From Actinomycetota bacterium (GTDB lineage: Bacteria > Actinomycetota > Actinomycetes > Nanopelagicales > Nanopelagicaceae), in the NCBI GenBank assembly GCA_947505195.1, contig CANNIM010000002.1, positions 1 to 43,772 on the forward strand: DNA of 43,772 bases. The letters are read 5' to 3'. The position numbers and the translations under genes were made by a program. Below, in pieces: positions 24,801 to 28,877 of the stretch. Every line of letters starts with the position of its first letter. The first letter of the stretch is position 1. A model generated the notes under the pieces. That model saw only the letters and a program-made list of their open reading frames with translations. It ran no database searches and was not told the DNA's origin.

Positions 24801-25158
24801 AACTCTTTCGGAACTGGGTTTCAAGTTATTTACTACCCAAGGGACTTATCAATATTTGCTCGAGAATGGCGTTAGCTCCGAAGTTGTTCGTAAGCATTCA
24901 CAGGGACGAGGAGCAAATGGAGAGTTCACCGCAGTTGATTTAATTACTGAAGGTGTAGTTGGATTAGTAATAAACACTCCGTTGGGTCGTGGAACCAGGT
25001 TTGATGGTTGGATGATTCGCACAGCGGCGATACAACGTGGAGTTCCTTGTATAACGACGATTGCAGGCTTTAAAGCAGCAGTCGCTGGAATTTCTGAGTT
25101 ACAAGGCAAGAGTTTTGGCATTAATTCCATTCAAGAGTGGTTGGCGATAAGCGAATGA
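21877..25158 (+). CDS. carB: Carbamoyl-phosphate synthase large subunit
   Basis: [37 protein letters not shown] and the second-half repeat [29 protein letters not shown]-terminal MGS-like domain. Start set to ATG 21877. Confidence 0.97.
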
Positions 25159-26012
25159 TGGGGATAAATAAGAACGCTAGCCAGGTTATTGCTGAAATTG
25201 TGAGCAACAAGAAGGTTGGCGCTTATCACCACATGGTTTTTGCAGTGGGGGAGTTAGCTAAATTTGCGAAGCCGGGAAACTTTGTTGCGATTGCGGTTGG
25301 CGGTGAAAGCAGCTCAATGGTTTTACGTCGAGCTTTCGCTATTTATCGCGCCTTTGACCGAGGTACCAACGGTGGACTCTTAGAGATTGTTGTTGCGCCA
25401 CATGGTGCAGGAAGTACTTGGCTCACTAATCAAAGCGTGGGCTTCAAGGTTGATTTGATTGCACCGCTCGGCACTGCATTTGGTATTCCAACAGAACCTA
25501 TTCGCGCACTTCTTGTCGGTGGCGGTTATGGCAGCGCCCCCCTCTTCGGCTTATCTGAAGTATTGAAGAACCGTGGATGTCGTGTCGACATGGTTTTGGG
25601 TGCAAGTACGGCGATGAAGATCTATGCGCCGTTAGATGGAAAGCGCTCAGTGAGCAGCTTGACCATCACCACGGAAGATGGAACAACGGGGATCACTGGG
25701 AAGGTAACGGATGTCCTACCTGGAATTATCGAAACAAATCAGATAGATATTATTTATTCCTGCGGACCAATGGGAATGTTGGAAGCGATAAATCAGATTG
25801 CAGCAGAATTAGGTGTTGTGCACCAATGCGCGGTTGAGGAAGCAATGGCTTGCGGGATTGGTGTTTGTATGACTTGCGTGTTGCCTATTAGGGGCGAGGA
25901 TGGTGAAATTCGTATGGTGCGCTCGTGCATCGATGGACCAGTTGTTGATGGTTCCAGCGTGATTTGGGGTTCTAAGCGTCAGATCCCCGAAGGAACATGG
26001 GGAGCGAATTGA
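25155..26012 (+). CDS. pyrK: Dihydroorotate dehydrogenase electron-transfer subunit (PyrK-like)
   Basis: FAD/NAD-binding architecture, [17 protein letters not shown], and Cys cluster [18 protein letters not shown]; directly precedes pyrD. Confidence 0.9.
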
Positions 26013-26947
26013 TGTTTAATTTCCGCACGAGTTTGGGGCAGGCCGAGTTCGAAAATCCAATATTTACAGCAAGCGGTTGCGCAGGCTCTGGAAAAGAATT
26101 AGCTCAGTTCTTCGACCTTACTGAACTTGGGGCTGTAGTTACGAAGTCAATAATGCTTAAGGCGAGATCTGGCAGAGCCACTCCAAGAATGGCAGAAACT
26201 CCAAGTGGCATGCTTAACTCAATTGGTTTACAAGGACCAGGGATCGATTTGTTTTTAGAGAAAGATATTCCTTGGTTGCGCGAGCAAGGTGCACGAATAG
26301 TTGTGAGTATCGCAGGCGAGAGCGTTGAAGATTACGCAATTCTTGCGCGCAAATTACGAGCAGTGCAAGGGATCTCTGCTTTGGAAGTAAACATCTCGTG
26401 CCCCAATGTTGAAAATCGTGGGCAAGTTTTCGCCTGCCAACCGGCCACTGCAAGAGCAGCGATCGAAGCCGTGCGAAGAAATATTGGCGGTGATCTTCCG
26501 ATTATCGCGAAGTTAACACCGGATGTTACGAGCATCGTCGAGATAGCGGAAGAAGTTGTGGCCGCTGGTGCTGATGCTCTTGCGTTAATCAATACCGTTC
26601 TCGGAATGGTCATAGATATCAACACGATGCGTCCGAAGTTAGCCGGAAAAACTGGTGGACTATCTGGGCCAGCGATTAGACCAATCGCAGTAAGGGCGAT
26701 TTATCAAGTGCACGAAGCGCTGCCAAATGTAAAAATTCTTGGAATGGGTGGAGTTGCATCTGGTCGAGACGCGCTCGAACTCATTCTCGCAGGAGCTTCG
26801 GCGGTATCAGTAGGAACCGCAACATTTGGTAACCCAACTGCGGTAATTAAAATTAAGGAAGAATTGCAGAATGAATTGATTGCTCATGGATTTGATTCGC
26901 TTCGAGAAGCGGTTGGCTATGCACATCGGAAGGAGGTAAACCTATGA
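26012..26947 (+). CDS. pyrD: Dihydroorotate dehydrogenase (class 1B-like)
   Basis: FENPIFTASGCAGSGKELAQF, NSIGLQGPGID, EVNISCPNVENRG, IIAKLTPDVT, GGLSGPAIRPIAVRAIY, GMGGVASGRDALELILAGASAVSVGTA. Confidence 0.94.
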   Translation: MFNFRTSLGQAEFENPIFTASGCAGSGKELAQFFDLTELGAVVTKSIMLKARSGRATPRMAETPSGMLNSIGLQGPGIDLFLEKDIPWLREQGARIVVSIAGESVEDYAILARKLRAVQGISALEVNISCPNVENRGQVFACQPATARAAIEAVRRNIGGDLPIIAKLTPDVTSIVEIAEEVVAAGADALALINTVLGMVIDINTMRPKLAGKTGGLSGPAIRPIAVRAIYQVHEALPNVKILGMGGVASGRDALELILAGASAVSVGTATFGNPTAVIKIKEELQNELIAHGFDSLREAVGYAHRKEVNL

Positions 26948-27645
26948 GCGCTAAGTCGCCGATAATTTTGGCTCTCGATACCCAAGATTTAGATACAGCC
27001 AAGAATTGGATCTCTGCAACAAATTCGTCAATCTCGATTTACAAAATTGGCTTGGAATTTTTCCTGAAGTTCGGCACAAAGGGGCTAAATGATTTGAAAA
27101 GCTCCGGAGAATTTCAGGTGTTCTTAGATTTGAAACTTCATGACATCCCAAATACCGTCGCAGGGGCTGTCGCTTCGGTCAAGGATTCAGGACCAAAGTT
27201 TCTCACTGTTCACGCGAGTGGTGGCACCGAAATGATTCGAGCCGCTAGTAGCGCCGCTCCACAAGTTTCTATTACCGCCGTAACAATTCTGACCTCACTT
27301 TCAGATGAAGATGTATCAGGAATCGGTTATGCAAAGGGAGCAAAAGAGAGTGCTATCGGACTAGCCCTCTTGGCTAAAAATAGCGGTGCACGTTCCATTG
27401 TTTGTTCACCATTTGAAGCGCGCGAAATCCGAAACGCTGTGGGCCCTGAGATTGAAATAATTACTCCAGGAGTGCGACCAGCGGGTGAAGATCAAGGGGA
27501 TCAGAAGCGAACCATGAACCCTGTTGAAGCAATCGCTGAGGGTGCAAACTATTTGGTGATTGGTAGACCGATTACGGATTTAGCAAAGATATCTTTAACG
27601 CAAATGAGTGATGGTGCTGCAAGGATTTTGGATAGTCTGAAATAA
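26944..27645 (+). CDS. pyrF: Orotidine 5'-phosphate decarboxylase
   Basis: ILALDTQDLDTAKNWI, FLDLKLHDIPNTVAGA, TVHASGG, ITPGVRPAGEDQGDQKR, YLVIGRPIT. Confidence 0.96.
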   Translation: MSAKSPIILALDTQDLDTAKNWISATNSSISIYKIGLEFFLKFGTKGLNDLKSSGEFQVFLDLKLHDIPNTVAGAVASVKDSGPKFLTVHASGGTEMIRAASSAAPQVSITAVTILTSLSDEDVSGIGYAKGAKESAIGLALLAKNSGARSIVCSPFEAREIRNAVGPEIEIITPGVRPAGEDQGDQKRTMNPVEAIAEGANYLVIGRPITDLAKISLTQMSDGAARILDSLK

Positions 27646-27648
27646 CAA

Positions 27649-28539
27649 ATGGGAAATAGACCACCTGATCTCTCCCCGCAAGAGCGAAAAGCGGCTGGTG
27701 AGAAAGCAGTTGCATCTAGACGTGAACGTGCTGAGATTAAGGCCGCGCTCACGAGCGGTGAGATTGGAATTTTTGAAGCCATAAATGATGGTAGGCAATC
27801 GATCCAAAGGATGCGCGTTAGTGAATTACTCGATGCCGCTCCGGGAATCGGCCCGCGTCGGGCGTTCACGATTATGTCGAAGGCAGGGATATCAGATACC
27901 CGTAGAATTGGCGGCTTAGGAAGACATCAATTGCAGAGATTAAGAAGTGAGATGATCTTGAATAAAGTTCCAGTAAACCAAGGCGCGCTAATTGTTATGT
28001 CTGGTCCTGGTGGGGTTGGCAAGAGCACTATTACTGCGCATCTTCGAAATCATCCAGCGGTATGGGTAAGTACGTCCGTTACTACTCGTGAACCCCGTGA
28101 AAATGAACGTGATGGACACGATTACCATTTCATTACCGAAGAAAAATTTGATCAGTTGATAGCGAACAATGAATTTCTTGAATGGGCCCAATTTGCAGGT
28201 GCTAGGTATGGAACCCTTAAGGGCGCCGTTGAAAGCGCCCGTAATTTGGGAAAACATGTATTGCTTGAAATCGAGATAGCGGGAGCAAGACAGATAAGAA
28301 GGGCTGAACCCGAAGCGCTTCTAGTATTTATCTCGCCACCTTCCTGGGAAGATCTGGTTGAACGCTTAACCAGCAGAGGAACTGACTCAATTGAACGCAG
28401 GGCTGCGCGATTAGCACTGGCTGAGGAAGAGATGGCTTGTGCGGGGGAGTTCGATGAGGTCCTGATAAATCACCAGGTCGAGGAAGTGGCCTTAGCACTG
28501 CTATCCTTAGCGGCTTCACGAGCCAATCGGCTCAGGTAA
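27649..28539 (+). CDS. gmk: mIHF-guanylate kinase fusion: N-terminal actinobacterial integration host factor domain plus C-terminal Gmk
   Basis: N-terminal about 100 aa LSPQERKAAGEKAVASRRERAEIKAALTSGE...MRVSELLDAAPGIGPRRAFTIMSKAGISDTRRIGGLGRHQLQRL matches mIHF; then IVMSGPGGVGKSTI, SVTTREPRENERDGHDYHFI, EFLEWAQFAGARYGT of guanylate kinase, in one uninterrupted ORF. Confidence 0.9.
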   Translation: MGNRPPDLSPQERKAAGEKAVASRRERAEIKAALTSGEIGIFEAINDGRQSIQRMRVSELLDAAPGIGPRRAFTIMSKAGISDTRRIGGLGRHQLQRLRSEMILNKVPVNQGALIVMSGPGGVGKSTITAHLRNHPAVWVSTSVTTREPRENERDGHDYHFITEEKFDQLIANNEFLEWAQFAGARYGTLKGAVESARNLGKHVLLEIEIAGARQIRRAEPEALLVFISPPSWEDLVERLTSRGTDSIERRAARLALAEEEMACAGEFDEVLINHQVEEVALALLSLAASRANRLR

Positions 28540-28598: not shown

Positions 28599-28877
28599 AT
28601 GACAACCATGGATGGAATCACAAACCCACCGATTGATAATTTATTAGAGGCCGCCGGTTCAAAATACAGCCTGGTTCTTTATGCGGCTAAGCGCGCACGT
28701 CAGATCAATGCTTACTACTCACAACTTGGCGAAGGTCTTCTGGAATATGTAGGGCCTCTAGTTGACACATATGTTCATGAGAAGCCACTTTCTATTGCAC
28801 TTCGTGAAATTAACGAAGGTCTACTCACAATTGAAAATCTTGAGCCAGTTGCTCCTGAAGCAGTAGTTGCTGAATAA
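28599..28877 (+). CDS. rpoZ: RNA polymerase omega subunit
   Basis: [50 protein letters not shown]; position between gmk and coaBC. Confidence 0.93.

Follow-up and report, generated by a model that had tools for sequence, protein, structure and literature searches.

The mycobacterial nucleoid protein mIHF (Mycobacterium Rv1388; PDB 6tob) and its Streptomyces relative sIHF (SCO1480; PDB 4itq, 6bek) are stand-alone proteins of about 105 aa, encoded just before rpoZ-coaBC-metK-priA. The mIHF of M. tuberculosis is reported to be essential and one of that organism's ten most abundant proteins (PMC6155035). The guanylate kinase of bacteria (Gmk; TIGR03263, M. tuberculosis Rv1389, PDB 1s4q) is translated from a start codon of its own. 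The stretch of DNA that we analysed, 43,772 nucleotides of an actinobacterial contig (CANNIM010000002.1; hereafter the window), carries both proteins as one. It resembles the described systems in its full-length mIHF match and predicted mIHF fold, in its gene position, and in its complete catalytic Gmk domain, which is the genome's only copy. Unlike them, its mIHF is joined to Gmk, where it stands in place of the kinase's own start codon, carries another residue where the RRxRG motif has its third arginine, and evolves faster. Both parts belong to known families; what is new is the architecture and its recurrence, and in a literature search that covered subscription papers only in part we found no description of an mIHF-Gmk fusion.

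The fusion gene and its two domains

The original prediction, an mIHF segment fused in frame to a complete guanylate kinase, is borne out by profile matches above both curated cut-offs within one open frame, with no stop or frameshift inside its 296 codons:

27649..28539, + strand: mIHF-guanylate kinase fusion gene, 296 aa, a single frame conserved in relatives
27664..27951, + strand: actinobacterial IHF (mIHF/sIHF) domain with S13-like H2TH fold, residues 6-101 (NF041260, PF22525, PDB 4itq, 6bek_A)
27952..27981, + strand: inter-domain linker, residues 102-111; in separate genes the place of the stop, start and Shine-Dalgarno (SD) sequence
27982..28509, + strand: guanylate kinase domain, residues 112-287 (TIGR03263; model compared with 1s4q)
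28003..28029, + strand: Gmk P-loop GPGGVGKST, residues 119-127

The actinobacterial IHF profile NF041260 scores 96 bits, where 60 are required, and is aligned over positions 3-100 of 102, while the guanylate kinase profile TIGR03263 scores 207 bits against a cut-off of 160, over positions 1-177 of 180. The Pfam models H2TH_5 (PF22525, 57 bits) and Guanylate_kin find the same two domains. By sequence, the N-terminal part matches sIHF 4itq (E=1e-19) and mIHF 6tob (E 1e-13), and the whole protein matches M. tuberculosis Gmk. As mIHF forms only part of 296 aa, the protein falls outside the size of a stand-alone mIHF (~105 aa), and the locus is classed as a fusion containing an mIHF domain; NCBIfam types NF041260 as 'equivalog_domain', which fits the occurrence of this domain inside longer proteins. 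The P-loop and residues S143, R147, R150, Y159, E178, R239 and R243 are all present in the Gmk part, which, judged on its sequence, is a complete catalytic domain with intact motif residues and a predicted GMP to GDP activity.

Structure prediction points the same way. AlphaFold2 modelled the whole fusion protein with a pLDDT of 91 and a pTM of 0.83, and the N-terminal domain alone again with a pLDDT of 91; the linker residues, too, were modelled with high confidence. The top Foldseek matches of the modelled N-terminal domain were 6bek and 4itq, both sIHF bound to DNA (rmsd 1.1 Å), with a TM-score of 0.88 of target for 6bek_A, and the modelled Gmk part aligned to M. tuberculosis Gmk 1s4q with a TM-score of 0.85 of target. 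The mIHF fold is thus predicted to be kept in the fusion. A defined placement of the two domains relative to each other is suggested only by the pTM.

Copy number, neighbourhood and translation

We ruled out an assembly artefact or a missed stop codon, as the same frame, of ~297 aa and with a gap of 13 codons between the domain matches, recurs within the family, in independent metagenome-assembled genomes (MAGs) as well as in genomes that consist of a single contig. Exactly one mIHF (NF041260) and one Gmk (TIGR03263) exceed the cut-offs in the window's genome, a 936-kb MAG whose 66% completeness limits any call of absence made there, and in congeners that are 94-99% complete; in one of these (G297) the single gene is split over two contigs. 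A separate mihF elsewhere, which would have spoken against the original prediction, was therefore found neither in the window's genome nor in its near-complete congeners, and in the latter the fusion is both the sole mIHF and the sole Gmk. HU (PF00216) is present in 23 of 23 genomes tested. Related named database records, 70-99% identical, are freshwater MAGs named 'Actinobacteria' and 'Candidatus Nanopelagicales'. Two public MAG records titled 'Bifidobacterium breve' (L091, L095) also hold a fusion, ~80% identical to the window's freshwater protein, so these titles look wrong.

The fusion lies in the order carA/carB-pyrK-pyrD-pyrF-[fusion]-rpoZ-coaBC-metK-priA, and relatives with separate, adjacent mihF and gmk share this order, in keeping with the proposal that two neighbouring genes were joined. 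Its immediate neighbours, and a possible internal start, are as follows:

26944..27645, + strand: pyrF, upstream, its stop codon 3 nt away from the first codon of the fusion
28599..28877, + strand: rpoZ, downstream, in conserved synteny
27952..27954, + strand: internal ATG, candidate start of a free Gmk of 195 aa, neither conserved nor preceded by an SD above background

The fusion start has no strong SD, and we infer that translation of the fusion is coupled to pyrF within the operon. In the window's family (f1), pyrF and the mIHF part are a median of 24 nt apart in fused loci and 33 nt apart in unfused ones, versus 135 nt in other lineages, so that a separate promoter for mihF would hardly fit; considering that the spacing is short in fused and unfused members alike, this tight operon coupling is older than the fusion.

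It had also been proposed that the locus makes a free Gmk beside the full-length protein, by initiation at 27952, and proteolysis could have the same outcome. An ATG does stand in the linker, and some ATG or GTG occurs in that stretch in 14 of 18 same-genus loci. However, the ATG at the 27952 codon itself is found in only 9 of these 18, and pairing to the anti-SD upstream of it (-2.9 kcal/mol) is at background (-2.65 kcal/mol), a combination that rules out a conserved internal start and leaves this part of the original prediction without backing. Further afield, an ATG or GTG is present in the linker stretch of just 2 of 16 loci of family f9 and absent from that of the g197 and f97 fusions. 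We consider two products improbable; these sequences are most simply read as giving a single, full-length protein.

Upstream, the window also encodes pyrK and a class 1 type pyrD (25137-26947; NF005574 over cut-off). The quinone-dependent class 2 PyrD is the usual form in actinobacteria, and this pair may be unusual for the phylum.

Distribution and history of the fusion

Scoring a locus as fused if both domains share one stop-free frame, we found 11 fused genera in f1 (g1, g197, g198, g199, g200, g202, g203, g204, g227, g229, g231) versus six with separate, adjacent mihF and gmk (g201, g205, g206, g228, g230, g232). As had been suspected, the fusion extends beyond this lineage: all sampled genomes of f9 are fused (one locus being interrupted by a contig end), which makes the earlier suggestion of Microbacteriaceae plausible, as f9 may be that family. 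Fusions also occur in genus g274 of f97 and in some genomes of genus g196 of f69. These fusions share with that of the window the order of mIHF then Gmk in one frame and the lost third arginine; they differ in the spacing between domain matches (48-54 nt in f9, 60-78 nt in g274 and 60 nt in g196) and, from the distribution seen, in origin. The fusion has thus arisen independently in at least three families beyond f1.

In nearly all other members of the class that we examined, mihF and gmk are separate and mostly adjacent. Many of these genomes, from several families and including loci L063, L066 and L077, have the two genes in the same frame with a single stop between them, and are therefore one substitution short of a fusion. 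We considered programmed read-through at such loci, but the stop is TAG in some and TGA in others, and in several cases a start codon comes after it, so we treated them as plain neighbouring genes.

Within f1, a tree was built from 13 neighbouring proteins, the fusion itself left out and all markers coming from one linked region. It places unfused g201, g230, g205 and g228 at the base and, above them, two groups with strong support that include fused genera, inside one of which unfused g206 and g232 nest together with fused g204. A single origin with the fused genera of f1 as one clade is rejected (delta lnL 124, or 75 without g204; KH p <= 0.0004). As the fused genera do not form one clade, the f1 genes either fused once and then split, or fused several times. 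The spacing between domain matches, 39 nt in most fused genera, speaks for a single early fusion with later fission; in g204 it is 78 nt, and the genes there may have fused anew. The nested unfused loci are those of g232 (L189-L193, L204) and g206 (L197, L198), and at some g232 loci the two domains share a reading frame but for a stop in the linker, which is suggestive of gene fission.

Could the join be simply a by-product of compact operons, with both domains working independently as before and no new function gained? The genes were tightly packed before they fused, as seen in the 26-70 nt between domains in unfused members of the family; in-frame neighbours with a single stop recur in several families, and fission or repeated fusion within f1 would sit well with such neutrality. 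On the other hand, a protein as essential and abundant as M. tuberculosis mIHF (PMC6155035) is hard to match 1:1 with an enzyme, and the change in the motif arginine described below tracks fusion. We therefore regard a neutral fusion as having only a slim chance of being right.

Other lineages have dispensed with mIHF altogether. Genera g285 and g251 of f97 (genomes G628, G677, G501 and G581, at least 95% complete) have no mIHF genome-wide, and at loci L220 and L221 of this family none lies between pyrF and gmk; both g285 genomes tested carry two HU genes. These genera represent a natural loss of a protein that is essential in M. tuberculosis. A protein so essential and abundant there is, in the window, tied one-to-one to a housekeeping enzyme, yet elsewhere in the class it is gone. 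As mIHF is separate in some lineages, fused or apparently re-separated in others and missing from a few, together they offer a natural test of which mIHF functions are indispensable, and of whether a functional link underlies the conserved pairing of mihF with gmk. Moreover, genes of ~300 aa annotated as 'guanylate kinase' may conceal a genome's only mIHF.

Changes in the mIHF domain and its likely role

One study reportedly assigns the mIHF arginines R170, R171 and R173 a role in DNA binding. With numbering that begins at residue 86, the published start (PMC6155035), they fall on the RRxR motif, and in the window the motif has changed:

27901..27912, + strand: RRxR motif, RRIG in the window, residues 85-88, the third arginine being replaced by Gly88

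The third motif position is basic in none of 90 distinct fused sequences, which come from independent fusions, versus 66 of 91 separate ones (Arg/Lys), while the first two arginines are usually kept. The third arginine is also missing from some separate mIHFs (those of g232, of part of f97 and of other classes), so its loss is not confined to fusions and does not prove that binding is weaker. The mIHF part has a net charge of +7.3 in the window's genus, where separate relatives have about +8.5 to +9, and the charge remains strongly positive except in f69. It also changes faster: dN of mIHF relative to Gmk is 1.3-2.05 in fused groups versus 0.5-1.1 in most separate ones (clade A being excluded from these ratios, and dS being saturated for most pairs, which leaves dN/dS values thin), with exceptions among separate genes in g232 (1.37) and unfused f97 (2.05). 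The lost arginine and the faster evolution count against assuming a normal mIHF attached to Gmk. They suggest an altered, probably weaker, contact with DNA rather than decay.

The main rival to this weaker-binding reading is that, once the stop codon was lost, mIHF gave up useful DNA binding and became a folded extension that stabilises or positions Gmk. Indeed, the third arginine is gone in every fused lineage, the mIHF part outpaces Gmk when fused, relatives (g285, g251) manage without mIHF, HU is present, and a pTM of 0.83 is compatible with defined packing between the domains. However, the fused families have all kept the fold, a basic charge, R85/R86 and the GIG/GLG turns, identity within fused genera stays near 60% with no sign of decay, and none of the fused lineages seen has a truncated mIHF domain. 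A purely structural mIHF is possible, though we think it somewhat unlikely.

The most likely explanation, to which we would give about an even chance, is a single bifunctional protein in which mIHF now binds DNA more weakly and is tied to Gmk 1:1, the chromosome being packed by HU. The full-length fusion would be made by translation coupled to that of pyrF; the C-terminal domain would phosphorylate GMP, and the N-terminal H2TH domain would contact DNA through its remaining basic surface, more weakly and at the copy number of an enzyme, which would put part of the guanylate kinase pool on the nucleoid. With HU as the main packing protein, the need for abundant stand-alone mIHF may have relaxed, permitting fusion and, in f97, outright loss. 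Perhaps the two halves also communicate, such that GMP/ATP or (p)ppGpp on Gmk alters the grip of mIHF on DNA, or DNA alters the kinase, coupling compaction to guanine-nucleotide supply in a way repeatedly exploited by fusing the neighbours; such a nucleotide-responsive nucleoid protein seems to us a rather remote prospect.

Lastly, locus L081 (f69, g196) is a distant fusion whose mIHF-like domain is acidic and without the arginine motif; over the two f69 loci, the mean net charge of this domain is -3.
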